Virus record (IMG/VR): IMGVR_UViG_3300037585_002169
Location: 1 to 30,592 of that record
DNA: 30,592 bases
Source: a virus
Direction: 5' to 3' (one strand)
Shown here piece after piece: positions 5,006 to 30,521 of this stretch. Made by a program: the position numbers and the translations under genes. Under the pieces are notes generated by a model, which did not search any database, was not told the origin of the DNA, and worked only from the letters and a program-made list of their open reading frames with translations. Every line of letters begins with the position of its first letter. Positions within the stretch are counted from its first letter, which is position 1.

Positions 5006-7744
5006 TTAAGCTGAAGTAGAAAGTAGCTTATCAACATCAAACCTTAAAGTTTGACTAGCGTTACCCGCTCTATTTATCCGCATGTTACCAGTTATAGTGG
5101 CTACTCTACCTGTGTTTTCTACAGTTAAAGTGATACCACTTTCTAGCGTTTGATTACCATCAACTGTCCAGTCACCACTTTCAGTAGCGCCTCCACCTGC
5201 TGTTATAAGTGGATTTTGTAATGCAGGGTTAATACCTACACCGCCAACTCTAGAAACGTTATTAATAACACCCTCCCTGTTGTTCACCGTTATCGTGCTA
5301 CTATTAGAAACGGTACCAGACGTTGTTGCTGTTGGTGCAGTTAAAGCTATCTTTAAATCTGTAAACTCAACATCCCAGCCATAAAGCCTTCGCACTTCAC
5401 TCTCTCCATAACCACCAATTTCAATTGCAGTTCCACCTAAGCTTATAGGTAGTTGGTTGCTAAAAACAATATCACCAGCTTGATTTGTAACTAAACCTTT
5501 CACAACTGTTGGTTTTAAACCTTTAGTGCTTACAGCCGGAAGTGTTTTACTAACTATTGTGCGCTCTTCTTTTGTTCCTGGTGAGGTAGTTGTTTTATCA
5601 CTGTAAGCTTGTAACCTAGTGTCAACTGGGATGTTAGTACCAGGCAGTACTATCATGCCGTCTTGAATTAAATTAACGTAATTATTAACCGGCCAACTGT
5701 AGTTTACTTGGTTACTAAAACTTAAAGTAGCTCCATCATCAATAGCAACACCAGACGATATAGAAAAAATATTTGTAGAGTCTAAAGAAACAACTGTAAA
5801 TACACCAGCGTTAAGAGCCGCATTACCCGTAACTCTATCTCCAACAGCCATTTTAGTTGCTACAGCAGAATCCATAGTTATAGCTACACCAGAAGAACTT
5901 CTTCCACCCGGCATGTTAACAGTATCCGTACCTGTTACGGTTGGGTATATGTTTTCTCCTTGTAGAGTAGCTGGTACAGATGCAAGCGTGGGTTGTATAA
6001 AAGATATAATATCATCTTGTGAAGGTTGTTTTAAAACTCTAAACGCAGCCGTTGAGGCTGCTGTAGTTGTAAACGAAAAAGCAGTATCTTCTCCTTCTTT
6101 ATATCTATCAATCTCAACGCTTGTAGTTCCCATTGTAGCAGTAATATCACCGCTTACTGAATAACCCGATAGCGTTAGCCTTAGCTTGCTATTGTATTGA
6201 TATATAACTTTTTGTAACAACAAAGAATTAGATCCAATAGAACCGTTTAAATCAATACTGTCATCTCCAAAACGTTTTTCAATGTAAGAAACATGTTTAG
6301 TGCCTGGTTTAGCGTGTAAAAAAACATCGTACTGGTCATCGCTTCCAGATGCTGGAAATACTACTTCGTTTATATAGGAACTGCCTTCTAACTCTTCATC
6401 TAAAAATGAGTGTGTTTCTGTAAAGGTTTTTGTGTAAAAATTATAATAGTTACCATCAGCGTTTTTTATCTCTAAAACAAAACTAGCACCACTATCTCCA
6501 ATAATTTCCAAGGATCTTGTTTCGGTTGCAGCTGTTAAATCAGCTAAATTTAATTTAAATTTTGTTATAACTTTTTCTGATCTATCGCTATATGTATCTA
6601 TAAACACATCTTCTGTAATATAATTACCATTTGGTGTAAGCACCCAGCCGTCAATCTTTTTATTACCACGGTTTGTTACTTTTCTCATTGTATCCCCAGG
6701 TTTAGCTATTTTATGTTTTTGATGAGGAAGTGTTGAGCCCCCAGAACCACAACTAGCTACACAAGCCTGTTGCGTTGGAAACGCTCCTGTTTGAGGAGTA
6801 AACCTCTCAACACATTGCGATATACCCCCAAAAGTGTTAAATAAATTATCAGGAGATACTTCTCCTATATTTGGAGTTGTAGTCACGCAATCCCAGCCGC
6901 TTGATGTAGGTGGTGGACAATAACACGCGTCACAATCATCGCAACCTTTAACAATACTATTAAACGTTGGATAATGCCACAAAGCCCCACCGGTTGTTGG
7001 AATAGAATGTCCATGATATATTAAACAATGCTCTTCCGATCCCCAACAAGCCCATTCTGTTGTGTCAATTACATCCCCGGGATTAATAGGTCCTATTTGG
7101 TTGATCACTTCTTGATAAAAAGCCGCTCTCCATAAATTATGATTGTTAATTGTTGCTGCATTATAAGCGGGAGTTCCACTACCAGCACCACCAGCACATA
7201 ACGCATAAACTGCGCCAGTTGCTGGACTACAATTTGGATCCCAGGTAGGATCAGCCTCCGCAATAGGCTTAGAACCCAATGAGATAAAATGAGTGTTTGT
7301 AAAGTTTTGGATATTACTACTAGTTCCATAATAATTACCTGGGACGTCTAAATCGTTAGGACAGAAACTCCAATGAGCTACGGGATCCCAAGATTGCTTA
7401 TTTTTAATAGGATTTTCTATTATACGTACTTCTTTCACACAACCACTTGTCCCACCACCACTCAACCTAGCGTGATCAGCATCAGACATCAACGTACCGT
7501 CTGGCATGTAATGATATCCCTCAGGAGCAGTTTGACCTTGAGCGTTTCTTCTGTTTAGCTCTATTTCATCGGATCCGTTAGGATTAGCCAATCTTGGACC
7601 ACCAAAATCATAAGGACCTGTTAACTCTTCGTTGGTCATACAATTGCAGTGTCTTTGGCTCCAATAATATCCATCAGCGCAAGACATTTGCTGCACGCAA
7701 GGTTCTCTATTTAAATTCGGCTGAATAGTGCCATCGTATGCCAT
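5006..7744 (-). CDS. Probable tail fibre / receptor-binding protein with Cys-rich N-terminal region
   Basis: A 912-aa multidomain protein. Residues 16-46 hold a Cys module (CADGYYWSQRHCNCM...GPYDFG), followed by GYHYMPDGTLMSDADH (77-91). Residues 268-332 are again Cys-rich (CDDCDACYC and GWDC ... AFPTQQACVASC). From ~345 on the protein is beta-rich, Thr/Ser/Gly/Val-heavy and lacks cysteine, as in fibre shafts. Residues ~622-680 contain a beta module also found in two other virion proteins here. The C-terminus ends GNMRINRAGNASQTLRFDVDK. No enzyme motif was seen. It sits directly after the 177-aa Cys-rich protein and shares a Cys motif with it and with the end of the 2796-aa tail protein. The three may therefore form one host-contact apparatus. 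The fibre role is inferred from composition, size and place. Confidence 0.7.
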   Translation of the reverse strand: MAYDGTIQPNLNREPCVQQMSCADGYYWSQRHCNCMTNEELTGPYDFGGPRLANPNGSDEIELNRRNAQGQTAPEGYHYMPDGTLMSDADHARLSGGGTSGCVKEVRIIENPIKNKQSWDPVAHWSFCPNDLDVPGNYYGTSSNIQNFTNTHFISLGSKPIAEADPTWDPNCSPATGAVYALCAGGAGSGTPAYNAATINNHNLWRAAFYQEVINQIGPINPGDVIDTTEWACWGSEEHCLIYHGHSIPTTGGALWHYPTFNSIVKGCDDCDACYCPPPTSSGWDCVTTTPNIGEVSPDNLFNTFGGISQCVERFTPQTGAFPTQQACVASCGSGGSTLPHQKHKIAKPGDTMRKVTNRGNKKIDGWVLTPNGNYITEDVFIDTYSDRSEKVITKFKLNLADLTAATETRSLEIIGDSGASFVLEIKNADGNYYNFYTKTFTETHSFLDEELEGSSYINEVVFPASGSDDQYDVFLHAKPGTKHVSYIEKRFGDDSIDLNGSIGSNSLLLQKVIYQYNSKLRLTLSGYSVSGDITATMGTTSVEIDRYKEGEDTAFSFTTTAASTAAFRVLKQPSQDDIISFIQPTLASVPATLQGENIYPTVTGTDTVNMPGGRSSSGVAITMDSAVATKMAVGDRVTGNAALNAGVFTVVSLDSTNIFSISSGVAIDDGATLSFSNQVNYSWPVNNYVNLIQDGMIVLPGTNIPVDTRLQAYSDKTTTSPGTKEERTIVSKTLPAVSTKGLKPTVVKGLVTNQAGDIVFSNQLPISLGGTAIEIGGYGESEVRRLYGWDVEFTDLKIALTAPTATTSGTVSNSSTITVNNREGVINNVSRVGGVGINPALQNPLITAGGGATESGDWTVDGNQTLESGITLTVENTGRVATITGNMRINRAGNASQTLRFDVDKLLSTSA

Positions 7745-7800: not shown

Positions 7801-8334
7801 TTATCCCCAAATATCCGGCGCGTGAGTTTCATAACAATGTTGCTGACTACATTGGTACCAACTCCAACAACTTGATGGTGGCGTGTTTCCGTTGTAAGTT
7901 GATGAATAAACGCATTTAGGTCCACCACCCATACCCATACCCATTTCACAGGTATAACACTTTTTGAGTGCTTTACCTGTTAATGGCTCTCTAGTTTCGT
8001 CTGGCACGGTCATTCTAGCAAAAGGTCCGTTTTCATCAGGTTGACACTCGCAGTCAAAATCATTCCAAACAAAACCTTGCTCACACATTCTACCGTAACT
8101 ACCACAACCCCACGTGTTATTTATTTTGCTTTTAGAAGCTATTTCATTTGAATTGTCGCCTGTATCATATTTGTTAAAAGGTCCCATGTCTCCATGATTG
8201 GTACAACTATTATTACACTGCCACCAGCTCCAACAGTTACCAGGTCTAGCACCGCTTGCTGTTGAGGTCCATCTGCACCCAACCCTACCCCTTCCGCTTG
8301 ATTCACACGTGTAACACTTTGCTATTTCTGCCAT
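7801..8334 (-). CDS. Small cysteine-rich tail-associated protein with internal duplication
   Basis: A 177-aa protein with 16 cysteines (positions 7, 10, 20, 34, 40, 44, 77, 84, 95, 97, 126, 129, 141, 156, 162, 167). Residues 6-44 and 125-167 are an evident duplication: KCYTCE ... C ... NCWSWWQC..SC against KCYTCE ... C ... SCWSWYQC...C. Between the copies, residues 84-107 (CEQGFVWNDFDCEC...NGPFARM) match the N-terminal Cys module of the neighbouring 912-aa protein. The even cysteine count suggests disulfides, or alternatively metal knuckles. There is no signal peptide or membrane segment. The gene sits between the conserved 119-aa gene and the fibre gene, so a tail-tip or adhesive role is inferred. 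The family is not recognised. Confidence 0.75.
   Translation of the reverse strand: MAEIAKCYTCESSGRGRVGCRWTSTASGARPGNCWSWWQCNNSCTNHGDMGPFNKYDTGDNSNEIASKSKINNTWGCGSYGRMCEQGFVWNDFDCECQPDENGPFARMTVPDETREPLTGKALKKCYTCEMGMGMGGGPKCVYSSTYNGNTPPSSCWSWYQCSQQHCYETHAPDIWG
7834..7962 (-). repeat. Second copy of the Cys/Trp module in the 177-aa protein
   Basis: Codons 125-167 repeat the pattern of codons 6-44 (8203-8319): KCYTCE, a central Cys, then CWSWYQC and a closing Cys. Similarity is clear at protein level. The DNA has diverged, so the duplication is old. Confidence 0.7.
8203..8319 (-). repeat. First copy of the Cys/Trp module in the 177-aa protein
   Basis: Codons 6-44 encode KCYTCE ... GC ... GNCWSWWQCNNSC. 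This is the N-terminal member of the internal duplication whose second copy lies at 7834-7962. Confidence 0.7.
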
Positions 8335-8363
8335 ACTATTATTTTTTTTTAATTCTTATTTTA

Positions 8364-8723
8364 TTATTTACTGCTTTCTGTTATTTCTGATCCAACACTA
8401 AAAAGCTCTATTTCACAATCCGACTCGTTAACAAGCTCTACGTGCGCATAGTAGCCTAACAAACTAGTGGTGTTTACTTTTTTGTTTTTAGCAAAAGATA
8501 TATAGTCTCCTAGTACAGGAGGGGTCACAAGCGAACTGTTGTACTGCACTATTATAGTGTTACCGCTAATAGATATTATTTTTCCAAAAAACTTAGTGTT
8601 AACCACATCACCTTCATTAAACCCACCAAGAGAACTACCTCCAATAGTGACATAAATATCGTCTCCAATCTGAGCAGACACATTTATGTTACTAAAATCA
8701 AGTTGTACTTGTTGTATTGGCAT
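8364..8723 (-). CDS. Conserved small phage protein of unknown function (tail region)
   Basis: A 119-aa, mostly beta protein starting MPIQQVQLDFSNINVSAQIG. Residues ~43-75 alternate hydrophobic strands around NTKFFGKIISISGNTIIVQY. The C-terminal part (KKVNTTSLLGYYAHVEL...ELFSVGSEITESSK) has the look of a well-conserved motif, and I recall similar short proteins following the giant tail gene in marine Bacteroidota phages. No membrane helix, signal or catalytic motif is visible. It lies between the stabilization protein and the 177-aa Cys-rich protein, so a small virion component or tail connector is plausible. I cannot name the function. The leader is A/T-rich with no Shine-Dalgarno. Confidence 0.8.
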   Translation of the reverse strand: MPIQQVQLDFSNINVSAQIGDDIYVTIGGSSLGGFNEGDVVNTKFFGKIISISGNTIIVQYNSSLVTPPVLGDYISFAKNKKVNTTSLLGYYAHVELVNESDCEIELFSVGSEITESSK

Positions 8724-8758: not shown

Positions 8759-11700
8759 TTAATCATTTTGGTTGCTGGCACAATTACTGGCACAATCTTG
8801 CTGCGCAGTAGTTCCTGTGTATGTACCGCATCCAACATAGGTGGTTGTGCCTGGAATAAATCCACAAGTAGTTGGTTGGTAACAACCTTGATTAGGAATA
8901 CAATTCCACCCAGTACCAGAAACTTGTTGATCTTGACACATTAAAGAATACACACACGAGGAGTCATCTAGCGTTGCGCTAGGATCATAATTACATGCCG
9001 CAGCATCTGTACAACCTGGAAACAACGGAGCACAAGAACCGTTATCAAAATCCGCATAAGCAACATAGTTATATACGTAATTTCCGTTTGCATCTACAGT
9101 ATCGTCAGTACAACCTCCAGTCATAGTTTCACTATTTGTTAGTGGACAAAAAGAACCATCAATAGCTAGCGCGGTGGTTGTGTCTGCGAATATTGTAATA
9201 TAAGTATCACCAGTGTTTACTAAGGCACTCATGTCAGTAGTAGTTATAATCTGTCCCCACTGATAATCGAAAAGAGGAGCTCCTATATTAGTAAGCGCGG
9301 TTGTTATAATTCCCCCGGTTATTGTGTTTGTATTGTAAGTTAACGTTACAACAAGATCTCCAGGCGTAGCAAACGTTGTGGCTGCAGCATCAATACTAAG
9401 CACGTAACCGTCACCAAGCGTATAAGAAGAATTTACTATTGGGCAGTTATAAGGATCGCATGAACCATCATCAACTGTTGCGAATGCATTGTAGTTAGCC
9501 GCCGCGGACGTACCATCATTGTTAAGGGTACTATCTGTACATCCAGAGATTAAACCATCAGTTGAGGTTTGTATTATACTAGTCCCACTAGCGGTATTGT
9601 CACAAGTTGCAGTTATCGTTACTTGGTACACCGTGCTTGGTGAAAGCCCAGTTATAGTGTAGGTAGAAGCCGTCCCACTAAGCGGATTAATAGTGTGAGT
9701 GCTCCAAGTGGACGTACCCTGAACTCTCCACTTTATCTCAGCAGTCAACACTGCAGCGGTGTTAGGCGCGACAGAGAGCGATGGGTCAATAGTTACATCT
9801 ATTGTAGTGTTTGTTTCATTACCTAAAGACCAAGCGTTGTCTAAATCACAGTATAAGCAGGAACCATCATCTTGAACAATTGGAGTAGGACCATCATAGT
9901 TATCAGCGGTTGAATCTGTACATCCAGGGTTTGCGGGATAAGTACAAGTGACGCTATCATCATAAGTAACGCCATCAGTACAAGTTACTAAAGATCCAGG
10001 GCTTGCTACTGGGTTACAACCATAATTTTGCGCAGCATATTGAAGACACCCGGGCACTACGCAACCAGAGTTATCTACCCATGTACTGCCAGGGGGCGTA
10101 GTAGGACTAAAGTTGTCCGCGTAAGAAATATCACAACCTATATCCCAAACACACAAACCACTATCTATAGTTGCTGATGGATCATAATTAGAAGCTTGGT
10201 AACCACCATAAGCAGACGCGAATATACCTGCCCCCGTATTATCGTATGTACCGGTACCACTATCTGTACAACCCACGTCTAAACAACTTCCATCATCTAT
10301 CATACCATATCCACCGAAATTATTGTAAGGCACGTAGTTTAATGCTTCTGGAGGAAAAGGTTGACCTACGTTTGCCGCCCCATGCAAAGCTCCAAGTCCG
10401 TAATGAATAGAATATTCATTTGTACACCCAGACCACGCGCAATAACCTGGGTCTACATTTGGTGTTCCAGGGAACCACGTATAATTATAAGCGGATTGTT
10501 CTGTACATCCAATTTGAACATCTATACATGAACCATCATCATTAGTTGCTGCTGGATTGTAGTTAAAAGAACCTTGAAGAAAAGCCGCGCTAACACCGTT
10601 ACAAAAATTAGGTGTATTTTGTGATTCCCAATAACTACCACAATCCGTACATCCTAATACTACTGGAACACAAGAACCATCATCAATTATAGTGCCAACA
10701 CCGCCGTTATAAGTGTAAGCAACCGCGGGGAACGTGGTAGGGTTAAAAGCAGTAGGGTCAGTACAACCAATCCAAATACAAGAACCATCATCTGCGGTTT
10801 GTGCGGAGTTGTAGTTAGAAGCAGTTGGTTCTATACAGCCGTAAGTATAAGGCTGACAAGATCCATCATCTACATTAGCAGCTGGGTTATAATTAGCTTG
10901 AGTTGGATCTGTACAACCTTCAATAACTAGAACACTTACAGGTGCTTCGGTTAATATACCTAAACCCTGCATTGCAAAGCTAGATTCATCAAACGCATTG
11001 CTTGTCATTATTCCGCAGTTGTTTATCGGTATATTATCACCCTTTATGTAATTAAACCATTTTCCTTCTTTTTCTATAAACTCATCAACCGTACCGCCCT
11101 CTTTATCTGTTTCAATTCTTTGAACATACCAACCGTCTTTAGGTGCTAAGTTGTAATAGTCGTTATCTTGAAGGTTTTCAACAACCCTCGACTTGCTACC
11201 CTCGTAACTTAACGTGTGAAAAGATTTTACAATACTAGGAAAATCATTTAAATAAAAACTTATAGATGAAGCTTTTGGCGTTCCATAAAATTGATTCCTA
11301 GGAATAGTCGCCCCACTATCATCAAACTCTGAATGATGTTTCCAAACATAGCCACTTGAAAATGTATAATATTTATTTGCGCAACTAATTGCGTTTTCAG
11401 GTGTAAATGATTTAAAACTTACCCAACCTTTAACGTCTTCTCTAAAGGTTAGTGTTTCAGGCTTATCTGTGCTTGGTAACGTTGCTTCTGACTTAAACAA
11501 CGTTAGGTTGTACTCGCCTTTATAATCGTCATAACTACCTATAACATTGTCAGTCGGTCTAACTAAATTAAAGTGATCTCTAAACCAATCCTTCATACCT
11601 GCGTCTGATATAGGAGTTAACCCGTCTCTAGACAACCTTACAACAGCGCCTCTAACTTTATCTGTAAAGTAAGCTCTGTAGGATTCCGATGCAAATGATT

Positions 11701-14700
11701 CTGGATTTTTAGATATACCAAACTCACCAATGAAAGGTACTGTTTGGCCTAATACGTTTCCAGTAGCTGTTAACTGAATGTTTCCATCAGCGTTAAATAC
11801 AGCGTCTTTATTTGCTAATATTTTTAAAACTTTGTCTTCGCAAAGAGTGATTAAGTCTGTATTTCTAGAGTGTAGTTTTTGAATACTGCCATATACAGGG
11901 TTTACGTCTTTAGTAATTTTTTCTGCAGCAATAAATTGATTTAAGCTATTAACTCCAGAAGTAGAGTTATATAATCCAGAGTATATTAAACCATGTTTCC
12001 TATGCTCCTCTTCGTAGTCTTTTTCAAGAACTGTTGAAACTCTAACTCCTTTACCAATTATATGTGAATTGAAAGTATCAGATATTCTATCTGATTCTAC
12101 ACCGTTACCAAAAGCAAAGCAATTGTGCCAAGATAACCCAAAATCACTGTTGTAAATATTAGGCTTAACCTGTATTTCGTTAACACTTGGAATTCCATCT
12201 ACAACAACAGTAACATAACTACCGTCTAAGTTGGTAAGCTGAATAATATCGCCAGCAATAAGAGTGTTACTATGAGGTTGTGACAAGTATATAGTGTTAT
12301 TTATCCAAAGCTGAATTGTTGTTTGACTAGGTATAACAGCGGCCGCGTTGCAATTATAACAAACAACCCCACTACCTGCTGGGGCAATCTGTAAGTGGTT
12401 GTTATCTTTAAACAAATTCACCGGATAACTCTTAGACGCCTCGTAGTATAACTCTAGGTCTATAGGATCAGTTGGTATTGTTTCCCATATAGCGGGGTTG
12501 TAAGACGATTCGTATTCTTCCGACCCAACACTCACGCTACTGTATATTGACCAATTTATAATTCCGCCTTCAACTTCTTCTGAAGCCGCGTAAACACCGG
12601 TACCTGGAGTTGGAATTGATTCAAGATTACCACCAGCCACATCGTGCTGCATGGTTTTTACGCCTTGGTAAGATGTGTTACCAAGGTTTTCAGTATAAGT
12701 GTTTTGAGTTGGAATATAACCAAGTCTAGTTGAGCCATCTACGTTAGTCCATATAGTATTGTCTATACTTACACCCGGATTACCCGTAACGTTGGAAGCC
12801 GAGTCAACTACATCATAAAAAGCACCGCTTAGTTGTGGACAATCTGTCTTAACGTTAGCTTGTGTCGTTGGAAGCGTGCTAATACCTAACTGGTCGTTAT
12901 AACAGCCACTATTCTGAAATCCTGCTGTCCCGACGCCAATTTGAGAATAGTCATTGTAACCCGGAAGGCCAAGGCTATCATTTAATTGATCTTCAGCAGC
13001 CTCGTAACTTGGTGGGTAAAACTTATATTTTCTAGCATATACCGGTACTCCATTACAACAGTGGTCGCCGCTGAAAGCTATACCCAAGTTATTGTGCTGA
13101 TCTGGAGTTCCACCCGCTAATATATATTCAGTTGGCGTTATTATACCTTGATCTTGAACCGTAGTACCGATAGGTTGGTCTAACAACAATTCATATCTTA
13201 CCCTCCATAACCCAGGGGTAGTATTGTAACTCATAGGCATTCCATTACTATCTAACATAGCGTATACTTCGCCAGAAGCACAGTTGGAATCGTCGGGTAT
13301 GTTTGCAATCTCTTCAACTATTCTATAGTCTACAATTTTATACTTAATCATTCCTGGATCTCCATTAAAAGAAATGTAAGATCCTCCTGCTGTTAAGAAA
13401 TCATGAGTTTCAATGTTGGCATTAAATTGAAAATCTAAACCAGGTTGTGAGCTCGAGGTAGGTATATAATCTGGACCAACGTAAGATATGTCAATTCTTC
13501 TACTTCCTAATCTAGCACCAACTCCAGGTGTGTTTCTATGACCTCTATAAGGGTCACTACCAATATCTGGATCTGCAGATGGGCCATCAAAATTATTAAA
13601 ACCATAAGGAGTACCGCTAGCGTTATCAGCTGGAGTTGCATAGTATTCTTCAACTCCATTAATCCAGTTTTTCTTTGGAAAAAACCAAGTTGGCTCCATG
13701 TCAATAAACCAATTATCATCTTGACCCATAGTTTCCCAAAAGCCACTATCACCACCTCCACCACCTTCTGCTCTACCAAGAAAGTGAACAGACCAAGACC
13801 ATTCATAAGGTGACACGGTTCCATTAGGTATGCATGAAGAAACTTGAACGCTACCAGCGCTATAATTTCCATTAAAAGCACCCAGCATAAAAGGGTAGGC
13901 CTTAGGAAATATGTTTACATGCCTATCATCTCCCGTAAGGTTTTTTCCATGTGACCACGTTGATAGCTCTCTTGAATAAGCCCACTCGGAGTTAGCGGAG
14001 GTGTACTTTGGATTTTGAAAAGCTTCGTCACTTCTGTAAGAACCAGAAGAACCAACATAAGCTGTGTGACCATTGTAATCATACCAAGCAGGATTACTTA
14101 CGCTAGGGGGAAATTCCCATCCACCACTCGTAGTAGAGTTATTCCATACCTCATAATCACCTTTACTACCTAAACTACCTATATCGTAAGAACCGGTACC
14201 GTAATTGGTCATTCGGTCTTCTCGATGCCAATGACCATCATAGCGTAAAAACCTTGGAGTTAACATCCCAACAACACTGTATCCAGCGTCAAATTGGTAT
14301 GTTAAAATAGTTTGCTCTAAATTTAAATCTTTAAGAATTTTTACAAAAAACCTACCATCAAACTGTGCGTATGGAGTGTCTACGCTTCTGGCTATTTCTA
14401 AAGCGGCACCACTAACAAAACCACCACCAACATTAAAAAAATCTATATCATCTTGAAACGCACTATTAACTCTTATTTTAAGTGGGGTTGTAGCGATTGT
14501 CCCCGCGTTATCCATGTAATCGTCCATGGTTGATACTTCGTACCAATTTGAATATTGTTGAGGCGTGGTAGTTTTACGAAATCTAATCCACAATCTTTTG
14601 TCCACCATTTTAGAGTCTCTCCAGTCTTCAAAAGCGTGTATTAAAGAACTAGATGAACTAGTTAAAGCCGCGGGATCTACAGATATAGATGCTGAGCCTG

Positions 14701-17149
14701 TTATTGGAGGAGAACTACCTAACAATGAGGTAGAAGCATGATCTTCTATTCCGTATGATACTTTTGTAGATTTAACATAATCAGGAACCTCGTTTGATAT
14801 AGCTATAACCTTGTATTCCGAGGTATCTTCAATAGCAACATTGCTATTAATATTCTTTTTTAATATTATAGTGTCTTCTTCTGTAAGTTTGTTTCTATCT
14901 AACGACGGAAAACTTAACCAAATATTTCCATCTTCAGCATCATACCACCTATCCATTGCTAAATTGTAATACTGAGTAGAAGGTTCTTTTATAAAAAAGC
15001 GAAAAGATTCTGCCCAAACTGGTGGATTGCTTAGGTTTTTAATTTCTAATAAATTTGAGTTTTTTGCCTCTTTTTTAGGAACTTTTAAAGTAGATTGACT
15101 ACTTGTCATGACAGGGGATTGCCTACCATATTTATCTTCAAAAACAACTCCAAGTTGGTATTCTCTTAGTGATTTTATTGATCTTAAAGGCGTTGTAAGG
15201 TTAGGGTTCCAGACATGAGGGCTTTGTGTGTCTTCGGGTACTGGGGTACCATCTTGAGCAATGTTATGTTCAACTAAGTTTATATCAAACCTAGCGCTAG
15301 CATCTTCGTTTAATATCGTGTAGTTTTGCTTGTAATTACCGTAAACAATTCTACTGCCAGTAACCTCTTGTGCTCTAGCTATTTTTGGAACATTATCGTA
15401 ATGTCTTAGTATTTGGTTTTCAGCAACCACAGCGTGTATAAGTTCTGAATCCACAACGTAAGAATCGCTCTGCCACTGATTAGTACCATCATCAGGCTTT
15501 AGTTGATCAACAAGATATATGTTTGATGATCCGGATTCTTTATACAGTATATCCACTTGAACTACGCCATGCGGAATATTATCTGGTACAATATTTGATA
15601 ACGTAAGCTGCTTTAAGTGATTTTGCATCCCAACGTTTTGTCCTTTTTTTGGTTGATAATCCCAACTTAACGGAACAAAAGCAACCTGTGTAAATGGAGA
15701 GAAGGCAGAATATTCATTGTCTTGGTATTTGTATCTAACAGCAAATTTTGGAAATTTAAACTTGAGTATTCTTTCGTTGTTTTGTAGTTTTAAGTCAATT
15801 AAAAACCTGGTTGGACCTAAAGGTGTTGAAGTACTTATAGATACTATTTCTAAATCAATTAACGTGGTAAACACCCCGTTTGCATCCGGAATTCCAGATA
15901 TGTATGTGTTAATAACGTTTACCGTAACAATAGGCTGTCTAAGAGGAAACGATAAGCTTGATTGTTCATCAGGCAAAATCTCAAGAGACATCACGTCCCC
16001 AATCTCAACATCAAGATTATTAGCGGTACCAGGTGTAAGTCCATTTGTAACACTATGTAGTATTGGCACGCCAAATAACGCGTCTCCTGGAATTAACAAC
16101 TCGCCAGGGTTATTAGCGACGTCTTCAAAAGAAATCTCACATTCACCCATTGTGGCACTAGCTGTTGGTTTAGTAGACTCCAACATCATGCTTGGAGCCA
16201 TTTTAGGTTTTTCTTTTATAACTGTTATGTGTTTTTCTTGCGCAGGTGTACCAGCACCTGTTATACTATTTATAAAAGTAGTGTGTGTAAAAGCGTCAAT
16301 GGTTCCAGCTATAGACCTGGGTATATTTATTTTTTTAGGCTCTGAACCTATTAATTCACCATTTGAGTCATAGTGTCCATCGACCCAGAACAACATGTCA
16401 TCAACTATATTTATCCCAGTTATTAAGTTTTTTGAAGTAAACCCAAGTATTGTATTAAAATCAGGGCTTCCATTGTTAGTGAAAAATAACTTTGTGTTGT
16501 CAAAGTGGTATGTAGTTGTACTGTTGTCTAACCAAGTTAAATCTCCAAATAAAGTAATTGTGTTTGTTCCCGCGTCTATGCTTATGATATAGTTGCTTGA
16601 TACTTCAATAGGCGAGCCACTGCCATCAAACCCAAAAGCTATTAACTGCATACCTGAACTAAGGTCACTAACTGAGTGTGGACTAGGAAGAGTTATAGTT
16701 CCCGCTGTTGAGTTCCAACTGATATTAGTTGCAGTTTGAGATATAGTATAAGCAGGAGCGCTTATTGCTACGAAAACTGGAGTTATTGTTTCGTTTTTAT
16801 ATTGAAATATAATGTCTCTTGAAGCTGAGTCAGCTCCTTGTGGAGACAAAGAAGTAAATGAAGTAGAATCTACATCTTCTCCGCCAGATTTAACAAGATA
16901 ATAAAAGGCGTCGTTTTTTTCATCAACAACAGACCCCACGCACACCGAATCATTACCAATACCCGCTACTTGATAAGCGGATTCAGGCATTGAATTTCCT
17001 AATATATTTTGAACAGTACCAACCTCAGCTCCTTCAGATGTTGATACTTGTATATTCACCGCATGGTCATATTGTCCTTTTGGAACAAGTCTTTCATCAA
17101 CATCCTTGTTCATCTTACCACCGGTAAAATTATGCTTGATTTCTGGCAT
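8759..17149 (-). CDS. Giant tail stabilization (muzzle-type) protein with C-terminal Cys-repeat array
   Basis: A 2796-aa protein, 27% of the window. Its N-terminus (residues 1-50: NFTGGKMNKDVDERLVPKGQ ... AVNIQV ... GTVQNILGN) carries the signature I associate with the phage tail stabilization/muzzle family of crAss-like and related podophages. Other core segments fit: residues ~468-490 (KFAVRYKYQDNEYSAFSPFT), ~600-670 (QEVTGSRIVYGN, SIKSLREYQLGVVFEDKYGR) and ~1750-1880 (KLHSRNTDLITLCEDKVLKI, SYRAYFTDKVRGAVVRLSRDG). A Trp/Gly/Asn-rich stretch near 960-1250 looks like an insertion. From residue 2078 on, a GCTD...DDGSC repeat array follows, interrupted by a fibronectin type III-like domain (~2437-2525) and another beta domain (~2570-2665). 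A Cys-rich tail (~2735-2796) ends the protein. It starts 3 bases after the upstream ring-protein stop. It likely closes the portal channel and projects host-contact domains outward. Confidence 0.85.
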   Translation of the reverse strand: MPEIKHNFTGGKMNKDVDERLVPKGQYDHAVNIQVSTSEGAEVGTVQNILGNSMPESAYQVAGIGNDSVCVGSVVDEKNDAFYYLVKSGGEDVDSTSFTSLSPQGADSASRDIIFQYKNETITPVFVAISAPAYTISQTATNISWNSTAGTITLPSPHSVSDLSSGMQLIAFGFDGSGSPIEVSSNYIISIDAGTNTITLFGDLTWLDNSTTTYHFDNTKLFFTNNGSPDFNTILGFTSKNLITGINIVDDMLFWVDGHYDSNGELIGSEPKKINIPRSIAGTIDAFTHTTFINSITGAGTPAQEKHITVIKEKPKMAPSMMLESTKPTASATMGECEISFEDVANNPGELLIPGDALFGVPILHSVTNGLTPGTANNLDVEIGDVMSLEILPDEQSSLSFPLRQPIVTVNVINTYISGIPDANGVFTTLIDLEIVSISTSTPLGPTRFLIDLKLQNNERILKFKFPKFAVRYKYQDNEYSAFSPFTQVAFVPLSWDYQPKKGQNVGMQNHLKQLTLSNIVPDNIPHGVVQVDILYKESGSSNIYLVDQLKPDDGTNQWQSDSYVVDSELIHAVVAENQILRHYDNVPKIARAQEVTGSRIVYGNYKQNYTILNEDASARFDINLVEHNIAQDGTPVPEDTQSPHVWNPNLTTPLRSIKSLREYQLGVVFEDKYGRQSPVMTSSQSTLKVPKKEAKNSNLLEIKNLSNPPVWAESFRFFIKEPSTQYYNLAMDRWYDAEDGNIWLSFPSLDRNKLTEEDTIILKKNINSNVAIEDTSEYKVIAISNEVPDYVKSTKVSYGIEDHASTSLLGSSPPITGSASISVDPAALTSSSSSLIHAFEDWRDSKMVDKRLWIRFRKTTTPQQYSNWYEVSTMDDYMDNAGTIATTPLKIRVNSAFQDDIDFFNVGGGFVSGAALEIARSVDTPYAQFDGRFFVKILKDLNLEQTILTYQFDAGYSVVGMLTPRFLRYDGHWHREDRMTNYGTGSYDIGSLGSKGDYEVWNNSTTSGGWEFPPSVSNPAWYDYNGHTAYVGSSGSYRSDEAFQNPKYTSANSEWAYSRELSTWSHGKNLTGDDRHVNIFPKAYPFMLGAFNGNYSAGSVQVSSCIPNGTVSPYEWSWSVHFLGRAEGGGGGDSGFWETMGQDDNWFIDMEPTWFFPKKNWINGVEEYYATPADNASGTPYGFNNFDGPSADPDIGSDPYRGHRNTPGVGARLGSRRIDISYVGPDYIPTSSSQPGLDFQFNANIETHDFLTAGGSYISFNGDPGMIKYKIVDYRIVEEIANIPDDSNCASGEVYAMLDSNGMPMSYNTTPGLWRVRYELLLDQPIGTTVQDQGIITPTEYILAGGTPDQHNNLGIAFSGDHCCNGVPVYARKYKFYPPSYEAAEDQLNDSLGLPGYNDYSQIGVGTAGFQNSGCYNDQLGISTLPTTQANVKTDCPQLSGAFYDVVDSASNVTGNPGVSIDNTIWTNVDGSTRLGYIPTQNTYTENLGNTSYQGVKTMQHDVAGGNLESIPTPGTGVYAASEEVEGGIINWSIYSSVSVGSEEYESSYNPAIWETIPTDPIDLELYYEASKSYPVNLFKDNNHLQIAPAGSGVVCYNCNAAAVIPSQTTIQLWINNTIYLSQPHSNTLIAGDIIQLTNLDGSYVTVVVDGIPSVNEIQVKPNIYNSDFGLSWHNCFAFGNGVESDRISDTFNSHIIGKGVRVSTVLEKDYEEEHRKHGLIYSGLYNSTSGVNSLNQFIAAEKITKDVNPVYGSIQKLHSRNTDLITLCEDKVLKILANKDAVFNADGNIQLTATGNVLGQTVPFIGEFGISKNPESFASESYRAYFTDKVRGAVVRLSRDGLTPISDAGMKDWFRDHFNLVRPTDNVIGSYDDYKGEYNLTLFKSEATLPSTDKPETLTFREDVKGWVSFKSFTPENAISCANKYYTFSSGYVWKHHSEFDDSGATIPRNQFYGTPKASSISFYLNDFPSIVKSFHTLSYEGSKSRVVENLQDNDYYNLAPKDGWYVQRIETDKEGGTVDEFIEKEGKWFNYIKGDNIPINNCGIMTSNAFDESSFAMQGLGILTEAPVSVLVIEGCTDPTQANYNPAANVDDGSCQPYTYGCIEPTASNYNSAQTADDGSCIWIGCTDPTAFNPTTFPAVAYTYNGGVGTIIDDGSCVPVVLGCTDCGSYWESQNTPNFCNGVSAAFLQGSFNYNPAATNDDGSCIDVQIGCTEQSAYNYTWFPGTPNVDPGYCAWSGCTNEYSIHYGLGALHGAANVGQPFPPEALNYVPYNNFGGYGMIDDGSCLDVGCTDSGTGTYDNTGAGIFASAYGGYQASNYDPSATIDSGLCVWDIGCDISYADNFSPTTPPGSTWVDNSGCVVPGCLQYAAQNYGCNPVASPGSLVTCTDGVTYDDSVTCTYPANPGCTDSTADNYDGPTPIVQDDGSCLYCDLDNAWSLGNETNTTIDVTIDPSLSVAPNTAAVLTAEIKWRVQGTSTWSTHTINPLSGTASTYTITGLSPSTVYQVTITATCDNTASGTSIIQTSTDGLISGCTDSTLNNDGTSAAANYNAFATVDDGSCDPYNCPIVNSSYTLGDGYVLSIDAAATTFATPGDLVVTLTYNTNTITGGIITTALTNIGAPLFDYQWGQIITTTDMSALVNTGDTYITIFADTTTALAIDGSFCPLTNSETMTGGCTDDTVDANGNYVYNYVAYADFDNGSCAPLFPGCTDAAACNYDPSATLDDSSCVYSLMCQDQQVSGTGWNCIPNQGCYQPTTCGFIPGTTTYVGCGTYTGTTAQQDCASNCASNQND
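8954..10918 (-). repeat. Array of about 13 GCTD...DDGSC protein repeats
   Basis: Codons 2078-2732 of the giant tail gene encode degenerate units that open with GC(T/I)(D/E) and close with a DDGSC-like motif. The shortest are ~21 residues (GCTD..xANYNPxAxxDDGSC), and others are stretched to 30-50 residues by insertions between the two cysteines. I count about ten before the fibronectin-like domain, one after it and two near the end. Each unit keeps its Cys pair and mostly the Asp-Asp/Asp-Asn. This is reminiscent of Flavobacteriia secreted-protein repeats and of calcium-binding thrombospondin type 3 loops. At DNA level only the DDGSC codons recur closely, so the array is not a recent expansion. 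Confidence 0.85.
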
Positions 17150-29024: not shown

Positions 29025-29765
29025 TTAAGAAGGTGTTGTTGAAGAAAAAGCAGCATCACCATTTAGAGTAGCATCTAGACTTCCAACACTATCTTCCGCT
29101 GTACTACCACTACCTTCTGTAAAGTTCCAAAGATTTGTTAAATCACCAGAATTATCATAATCCCCACTATCAACAGTTATATCTATAGGTGTACCACTAT
29201 TATATATTGCAGTAACCGCGTTTGCATCTAAAACTTCGTCATATAAAGCTATTTGATATAGTAAACCATCAAAACCGTTTGAACCACCCGGAGTGCTACC
29301 TATAGTGTTCACGGTTAGGTCTCCAGTTGCTGCTCCAAGTGAAGTATTACTAACGGTAACTGAAGATCCATCTTCATAAATAACAACAGTGGCAGCTTGT
29401 CCTGAACCAGGATTACTTAACGTAAGAACATAGTGGTGCCAGTTTGTATCTGCTGTCACTACTCCGTCTGCTTCCTGCCCATTTTGGTCACCTTCAATTT
29501 CCAATCTATCACCAGCAGTATTAAAATTTATTTTTCTTTTATAGCCGTTAACGTTTGACAGCACGTGATCAGCGCTGACTCCCGCAGTGTCTCTTTTTGC
29601 CCAAAAAGATATACTAAATTTATCTCCACTACCACCAATAGGAAATCCGGTTTCTGTAAAAGAAAGATAATCTCCAGTTCCATCAAAAGACATTGAAAAA
29701 GCGGAAGCTGCTCCAGAAGCAGTTTGATGTACCTCACCAACTAAACTATTTCCTAATCCTAACAT
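29025..29765 (-). CDS. LamG/concanavalin A-like domain protein, probable head or tail decoration
   Basis: A 246-aa protein. Residues ~22-190 follow the LamG (Laminin_G_3-type) jelly-roll pattern: FSMSFDGTGDYLSFTE, FSISFWAKRD, NWHHYVLTL, YEDGSSVTVSNTSLG, then FDGLLYQIALYDEVLDANAV with TAIYNSG. These domains bind carbohydrates. In phages they occur on virion-surface proteins that contact host polysaccharides. The C-terminal 50 residues (DYDNSGDLTNLWNFTEGSGS, LDATLNGDAAFSS) look like the start of a second similar unit or a linker. The start overlaps the upstream stop by one base (TAATG). Its placement before packaging genes, away from the fibre gene, suggests a head fibre or separate decoration protein; this is inference. 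Confidence 0.85.
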   Translation of the reverse strand: MLGLGNSLVGEVHQTASGAASAFSMSFDGTGDYLSFTETGFPIGGSGDKFSISFWAKRDTAGVSADHVLSNVNGYKRKINFNTAGDRLEIEGDQNGQEADGVVTADTNWHHYVLTLSNPGSGQAATVVIYEDGSSVTVSNTSLGAATGDLTVNTIGSTPGGSNGFDGLLYQIALYDEVLDANAVTAIYNSGTPIDITVDSGDYDNSGDLTNLWNFTEGSGSTAEDSVGSLDATLNGDAAFSSTTPS

Positions 29766-30134: not shown

Positions 30135-30521
30135 TTATTTTTTTACTTTTTCTAATGATCTACCGCCAAAATAAGCACCGATCACGGTTATTAATACTAA
30201 TTGTAAAAGATCTACATAAGAATCTTTTACGTTAAATTTTAAAGCACCAGCATCAATGAATATTAATAGCATGGTGCATACTATTAAAAAAATCAATACC
30301 ATTGGCCTAACATTCTTGCTAAGCCATGAGTCTGATTTTAAATCCGCCTCCCAACGAGAAGTTATGTTTTTCTCCATCTCTACTTCATAATCACTTATAA
30401 GTTGCTTAATTTTAAGCTCAGCAGCAAGCTTTTCTTCTTTGGAAGTGTGTAGGTTGTCTATTACTCCACCTACACTTTTTACCAAATCAGCAGCACCACC
30501 AGAAAATAGTTTACCTAACAT
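30135..30521 (-). CDS. Holin-like membrane protein (GTA holin 3TM type)
   Basis: A 128-aa protein. The N-terminal half is amphipathic and charged (MLGKLFSGGAADLVKSVGGV, SKEEKLAAELKIKQLISDYE). A signature SDSWLSKNVRPMVLIFLIVC enters transmembrane segment 1 (~73-92). A second hydrophobic segment (~102-120: VDLLQLVLITVIGAYFGGR) precedes a basic end (SLEKVKK). The 'W-L-S-K-N-x-R-P' entry and 'YFGGRSxEK' ending match the holin family described for gene transfer agents (GTA_holin_3TM). Holins time lysis by permeabilising the inner membrane for the endolysin. No endolysin or spanin is in this window. Its start is 1 base after the stop codon of a similar short protein that runs off the window. Confidence 0.8.
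   Translation of the reverse strand: MLGKLFSGGAADLVKSVGGVIDNLHTSKEEKLAAELKIKQLISDYEVEMEKNITSRWEADLKSDSWLSKNVRPMVLIFLIVCTMLLIFIDAGALKFNVKDSYVDLLQLVLITVIGAYFGGRSLEKVKK

Follow-up and report, generated by a model that had tools for sequence, protein, structure and literature searches.

C177, a cysteine-rich protein of 177 residues, is the product of a real, internally duplicated and so far orphan gene in the tail-tip operon of what reads as a crAss-like phage of aquatic bacteria. Judged by its position, it is most likely, and plausibly, a disulfide-stabilised accessory or adhesin of the tail tip; the fuller explanation, in which it is a disulfide-locked structural protein of two modules at a crAss-like tail tip, is one that we credit with slightly less than an even chance. 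In the window, which is the whole virus record IMGVR_UViG_3300037585_002169 (30,592 bases), the gene and its parts lie as follows.

8334 to 7801, minus strand: C177, cysteine-rich open reading frame of 177 residues (ATG at 8334, stop at 7801-7803)
8335 to 8385, minus strand: A-rich leader ahead of the C177 ATG (sequence inspected)
8203 to 8319, minus strand: copy A, a six-cysteine module, residues 6-44 (Cys 7, 10, 20, 34, 40 and 44; duplication test, pattern match at 8215-8316)
8044 to 8106, minus strand: middle module M, residues 77-97 (Cys 77, 84, 95 and 97), with C..GF.W....C.C (pattern match at 8044-8085)
7834 to 7965, minus strand: copy B, a six-cysteine module, residues 124-167 (Cys 126, 129, 141, 156, 162 and 167; duplication test, pattern match and models)

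The terminase, portal and capsid proteins of the record match phrog_6681 (1.2e-167), phrog_6547 (8.9e-154) and phrog_13704 (1.5e-103), respectively, which PHROGs names terminase, portal and virion protein and which we take to be crAss-type, and a 2796-residue protein matches the crassvirus muzzle families PF25731 (2.6e-11) and PF25729 (6.2e-08), both over cut-off. The record carries, in this way, the crAss-type TerL, portal, capsid and muzzle by which crAss-like membership is recognised. Related terminases were found in 87 phage records: the closest, at 63.5% identity, is that of MW202828 (Manatee Spring), and the others belong to phages infecting Flavobacterium (68), Cellulophaga (15), Tenacibaculum (2) and Maribacter (1). 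Because of the PHROG and muzzle Pfam matches and the host genera of these terminase relatives, the record is, on sequence grounds, read as part of the genome of a crAss-like phage that infects Bacteroidota. At its opposite end from C177 lie a Laminin_G_3 lectin-like gene (29025-29765, 1.4e-14) and a protein barely below the GTA_holin_3TM cut-off (30135-30521, 24.7 versus 24.8 bits).

The first-pass annotation had placed the protein at 7801-8334, which is correct, the gene being on the minus strand, and its 16 cysteines with several tryptophans are found again on counting, with nine tryptophans. Against a background of 98 cysteines in the 9088 residues of 20 other window genes (1.08%), 16 in 177 residues has a binomial p of 1.4e-10. 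With a codon table trained on 12 window genes, the C177 frame scores 0.252 per codon and the five other frames score 0.005 to −0.418, so that C177 reads as coding, at a lower score than each of the 13 comparison genes (0.269-0.477), 12 of which are the training genes. The synonymous part alone amounts to 0.068 in C177, is negative in the other frames and ranges from 0.055 to 0.182 in the 12 genes. By eye, no Shine-Dalgarno sequence was seen in the leader (8335-8385); A-rich leaders are usual for Bacteroidota genes. A signal peptide, likewise judged by eye, is absent.

The two ends of C177 are a true internal duplication. They align locally with a BLOSUM62 score of 99 (residues 4-41 versus 123-163), compared with best scores of 67 among 2000 full shuffles and 72 among 2000 shuffles with the cysteines fixed, so none of the latter reached it, and identical residues occupy 20 of the 37 ungapped columns. 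Six cysteines follow the same order in both copies, with small indels altering their spacing (x2-x9-x13-x5-x3 in copy A and x2-x11-x14-x5-x4 in copy B); the last pair, Cys44 and Cys167, falls beyond the local alignment and is paired in the MAFFT alignment. These results confirm the duplication with equal cysteine order proposed in the first-pass annotation, and they agree with its view that a different cysteine module separates the copies, as the middle four-cysteine module scores within shuffles against either copy and shows no relationship to them. At nine of the 20 identical residue pairs the copies use different synonymous codons, and over the 37 aligned pairs the codon differences number 8, 14 and 19 at codon positions 1, 2 and 3, respectively. 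This synonymous change is the pattern left by selection on the C177 protein. It bears on the proposal that C177 is an accessory gene whose product is not in the virion, or else a functionless insertion in decay, a proposal favoured by its occurrence in one record only and by a codon score below all 13 genes measured; the open frame, the synonymous differences between the copies and the retention of all six cysteines in both argue against it, and we regard it as improbable.

The neighbours of C177 are themselves tail-tip genes, and several of them are rich in cysteine.

8364 to 8723, minus strand: P119, the small gene just upstream of C177 (phrog_18548 match)
8759 to 17149, minus strand: muzzle protein, 2796 residues (PF25731, PF25729)
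8759 to 11038, minus strand: cysteine-rich extension of the muzzle, residues 2038-2796, with GCTD...NY...DDGSC repeats (repeat and cysteine counts)
5006 to 7744, minus strand: P912, the next gene after C177, with a variable cysteine-rich N-terminal part and a conserved C-terminal part
7640 to 7681, minus strand: M-type module at the N-terminus of P912, CADGYYWSQRHCNC (pattern match; profile score 43.2 bits)

C177 is co-directional with P119 and P912, with gaps of 29 and 56 bases to these neighbours, and another part of phrog_18548, the family matched by P119, matches the muzzle. The muzzle extension after residue 2037 holds 43 of the 56 muzzle cysteines and ten GCTD...C repeats (regular expression), and all 18 cysteines of P912 lie in residues 1-345, with none beyond; together with C177, these two regions hold 77 of the 114 cysteines of the 21 genes counted. 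Many related loci also have cysteine-rich muzzle ends, and in the window an fn3-like stretch, below cut-off, was seen in the C-terminal extension of about 760 residues (8759-11038). The first-pass annotation had named C177 a candidate tail-tip adhesin, and its position in the cluster of muzzle, P119 and P912 supports it as a candidate binder; by the same positional argument it is probably a part of the tail-tip attachment apparatus.

The site that C177 occupies is variable among relatives. With P164, the gene after P912, 27 loci were fetched, of which 25 have P119 and 24 of these P912 as well; since L093, L101 and L102 share ORF coordinates with another locus, about 21 of the 24 are distinct. 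Neither P119 nor P912 is present in L114 and L115, and a different gene takes the place of P912 in L109. On the plus strand of the 24 oriented loci, no ORF of at least 60 residues separates P119 from P912, and the homologues of these two genes stand in swapped order, compared with the window, in L099, L100, L101, L102, L108, L110 and L113. P164 itself is 72-94% identical in 23 of the 25 relatives carrying P119. A search of the 27 related records for C177 found it in none at E≤10 and recovered the window itself at 4e-131. From these two counts, 0/24 loci with an intervening ORF and 0/27 records with C177, the gene is to date known from a single record, in which it occupies a variable site within the tail-tip operon; it probably arrived there by insertion rather than having been lost from the relatives, and it may be dispensable. 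The cysteine region of P912 is optional too, because its homologues have 17-45 cysteines in four of the 24 loci and 0-3 in the other 20. At this locus the cysteine mini-modules vary from one relative to the next, whereas P164 and the conserved part of P912 are retained. Many P912 homologues, from loci between L082 and L110, share a conserved motif, AP.G[FY]HYMPDG[TS]LM.D.E, close to their N-terminus. It occurs twice in L082; in the window it begins at about residue 74 of P912, with the M-type module ahead of it.

The M-type pattern, C..G[YF].W....C.C, is common to the middle module of C177 and the N-terminus of P912, where the stretch holding it seems, by eye, to be absent from relatives. Compared with an 80-residue piece of P912, the C177 middle scores 51, which is reached by one of 2000 full and 10 of 2000 cysteine-fixed shuffles. 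This shared pattern, the place of C177 directly before P912 and the joining of crassvirus tail parts by disulfides, described in PMC10172136, all speak for C177 having a structural part, as a clamp or chaperone for P912 or for the assembly of the tail, instead of binding the host surface. The P912 homologues of 24 loci, of which four are cysteine-rich, nevertheless manage without C177 at this place, and we put the clamp at roughly one chance in four.

When IMG/VR was scanned with the pattern, at least 120 stretches were obtained, and open frames of length 90 or more surrounded it in 14 of 80 and 11 of 40 among the matches listed. By eye, 11 of these 25 frames carry the same kind of module (L286, L245, L305, L269, L266, L258, L323, L329, L335, L352 and L355), some of these loci being near copies of each other. 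In L335 the M-type gene stands two genes ahead of a phrog_6681 terminase and a phrog_6547 portal, therefore the module also occurs in crAss-like phages. L286, L245, L305, L266, L323, L352 and L355 hold giant viral frames of 1395-4968 residues with 75-304 cysteines and M-type modules, the largest being that of L286 (4968 residues, 304 cysteines, open at both ends), and Pfam gave no family over its cut-off for L286, L245 and L305.

A profile was built from eight such modules of other viral contigs, which were picked by the shared pattern, so that the test is partly circular. The N-terminus of P912 scores 43.2 bits against it, with 0/2000 shuffles as high, whereas the cut-out M piece of C177 scores 9.7 bits (12/2000 cysteine-fixed and 4/2000 full shuffles as high) and the unrelated copy A, as a control, 4.6 bits (15/2000 and 29/2000). 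With a nine-module profile, M reaches 10.8 bits (5 and 1 shuffles as high) and the copy A control 3.8 bits (32 and 33). The whole of C177 scores −5.2 bits, with 5.9 bits for its best stretch, and when all six frames of the window are scanned at E≤10, P912 is listed at 3.4e-10 and the C177 frame is not. The match of P912 to the M-type modules is convincing apart from the circular pattern columns, and the link of the C177 middle module to them is at best suggestive.

A second viral module, a four-cysteine repeat of about [WYF]xC..GC...G.[YF].[ST]...CxxxC, has 22 copies in L286 (regular expression) and a few in L245, L305 and L266. A profile of the 22 repeats gave 40.7, 20.4 and 15.0 bits on held-out P912 modules of L084, L082 and L112, respectively, a weak 9.5 bits on P912 of the window (7/1000 cysteine-fixed and 2/1000 full shuffles as high), and −8.2 and −9.1 bits on copies A and B (891/1000 and 961/1000 shuffles as high). 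The repeat is therefore present in P912 homologues and, as far as this test shows, absent from C177. Descent of the C177 copies from the repeat, which looked good by eye, was not supported, since with profiles of 5, 8, 22 and 28 modules the scores of A and B fell within those of shuffles. In a set of seven proteins, BLAST without composition correction matched residues 4-87 of C177 to L245 at E 0.001, which would also point to the repeat but was given no weight.

Searches for relatives of C177 returned no family at E≤1 in Pfam, PHROGs and NCBIfam and nothing significant among PDB sequences (best E 1.7), in line with the first-pass annotation, which recognised no family. Phage records gave a single match at E 7, and the peptide patterns of C177 gave 12 and 49 pattern stretches in IMG/VR and one in GTDB genomes, none confirmed as a relative. 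Peptides of the neighbours' modules had non-significant phage matches (best E 9 and 0.8). The DNA pattern for CYxC...CWxWxxC occurs in at least 119 stretches of IMG/VR and falls in an open frame of length 60 or more in 11 of 81 matches (first 80 loci) and 3 of 39 (the other 39 loci), all of low complexity by eye and none a relative. As no relative was found, conservation offers no argument for function. Among the literature titles listed, none was on phage Kunitz-like or crassvirus cysteine-rich tail modules, a title-level result that does not prove absence.

AlphaFold2 modelled C177 alone with a low mean pLDDT of 48.5, in which copy A has strands at 5-12 and 18-26 and a helix at 37-46 (pLDDT block means 41-50), and copy B has strands at 124-131 and 139-147 and a helix at 159-171. 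Copy B modelled from an alignment whose one further row was copy A reached a pLDDT of 68.4 (strands 8-16 and 24-33, helix 49-56). Structure prediction of the two halves, by which the first-pass annotation had wished its duplication to be judged, thus gives strand-strand-helix for both, the agreement being one of element order in low-confidence models and not of superposed coordinates. The predicted order would also fit a zinc protein, each copy being a strand-strand-helix finger whose zinc is bound by its CxxC and CxxxC pairs. Zinc fingers are laid out with CxxC and CxxxC pairs, and CxxC at 7-10 and 126-129 with CxxxC or CxxxxC in or near the helix recalls them; on the other hand, six cysteines per copy and the CxC of the middle module would leave odd ligands, a content of only 3 His and of 15 Lys and Arg versus 18 Asp and Glu is unlike that of nucleic-acid binders, and the cysteine-rich neighbours are tail-tip proteins. 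We consider zinc unlikely, and infer that disulfides are to be favoured over metal.

Foldseek of the models against PDB and BFVD found nothing at E≤0.001, and its top PDB rows were other folds (E 2.7 and worse). VIA-align was run on chains preselected by Foldseek ranking, 14 for copy B, of which three had Z of 2.2-2.7 and 11 fell below 2, and 31 for the whole model, of which nine had Z of 2.7-3.1, all over residues 121-172, and 22 fell below 2. Eleven of the 12 rows with Z≥2 are titled BPTI, APPI or Kunitz, and the twelfth is the cone snail toxin 6yht, presumably of Kunitz type. These Kunitz matches (Z 2.2-3.1, 40-45 residues, rmsd 2.8-3.2) concern copy B only and come from low-confidence models. 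That two models seem to point to the Kunitz fold is notable; the Z values are low and within the range of chance arrangement, and AlphaFold2 may lean on familiar cysteine-rich folds. A six-frame search of the window with PF00014 had 0 matches at E≤10, a search without a positive control since none of 14 control genomes exceeded the PF00014 cut-off. Of nine records, a single one gave matches, at E 0.113 and 3.47, both under the cut-off and within a GCTD-repeat protein encoded on the L112 contig. Elsewhere on that contig, L356 (1-2121) is a 707-residue frame with GCTD...DGSC repeats and a tail without a Pfam match, whose end resembles what we take to be a type IX secretion sorting tail; it could be a secreted protein that the phage carries, or else a fragment derived from a host.

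A role as a Kunitz-like protease inhibitor, protecting the tail tip against host-surface proteases, would suit BPTI and other Kunitz chains being the sole neighbours of copy B at Z≥2 among the chains compared. It is, however, very unlikely in our judgement: PF00014 does not match, the cysteine spacing differs, and a fold does not show function; moreover, the alignment takes in BPTI only from residue 14-16 onwards, which leaves most of the inhibitory loop unmatched in C177. A broader conjecture, to which we give little credence, is that the copies are a phage-grown, shortened Kunitz-like mini-domain with six cysteines, doubled to serve as binding knobs at the tip of a crassvirus tail; it would belong to a set of exchangeable cysteine mini-modules that aquatic crAss-like phages swap in host-contact genes.

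As a disulfide-stabilised tail-tip protein, C177 would be made without a signal peptide and placed on or near the tail tip formed by the muzzle, P119 and P912. Each end would be a module of about 45 residues in which three disulfides, formed once the virion meets oxidising surroundings, hold two strands and a helix together, and the middle would be a separate four-cysteine module. By analogy with the Kunitz order, the pairing predicted in each copy is C1-C6, C2-C4 and C3-C5, that is C7-C44, C10-C34 and C20-C40, with the counterparts in copy B. The protein could then be a small and rigid knob, either in contact with the host surface or serving as a prop for the variable cysteine-rich head of P912, and may have originated by an insertion with module duplication at the variable site of the operon. 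To our knowledge, little is known of the host-contact proteins of aquatic crAss-like phages; the variable cysteine mini-module site is a place where host range may be tuned and, if the disulfide reading is true, such mini-modules are small stable binding scaffolds.

Compared with known systems, the Kunitz/BPTI fold resembles the C177 copies in its hairpin and C-terminal helix, as predicted for the copies, and in a six-cysteine order that permits the same pairing (5-55, 14-38 and 30-51 in BPTI), and copy B gives a weak structural match to BPTI residues of about 15-58. It differs in that the Kunitz spacing of x8-x15-x7-x12-x3 is not found in the copies, the N-terminal part of the fold is missing and no profile matches. 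The M-type modules of giant cysteine-rich viral proteins (L286, L245, L305, L266, L258 and near copies) share their pattern with the C177 middle, but the spacing of the first cysteine is off by one and the C177 match is weak. The viral four-cysteine repeat is, like the copies, a small cysteine module of the same operon, with the last two cysteines spaced x3-x4, but its profile scores A and B below most shuffles. In phiCrAss001, the muzzle and tail tip lie in a gene neighbourhood like that of the window, with the muzzle upstream, and the partial text of PMC10172136 describes no counterpart of C177. That text reports disulfides stabilising the tail barrel and fibre hubs, and those it names for the tail are not at the tip; oxidised cysteine in a crassvirus tail therefore has a precedent, away from the tip. 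The known kind around C177, whose duplicated six-cysteine module is unclassified, is that of the small disulfide-rich appendage proteins of phages.
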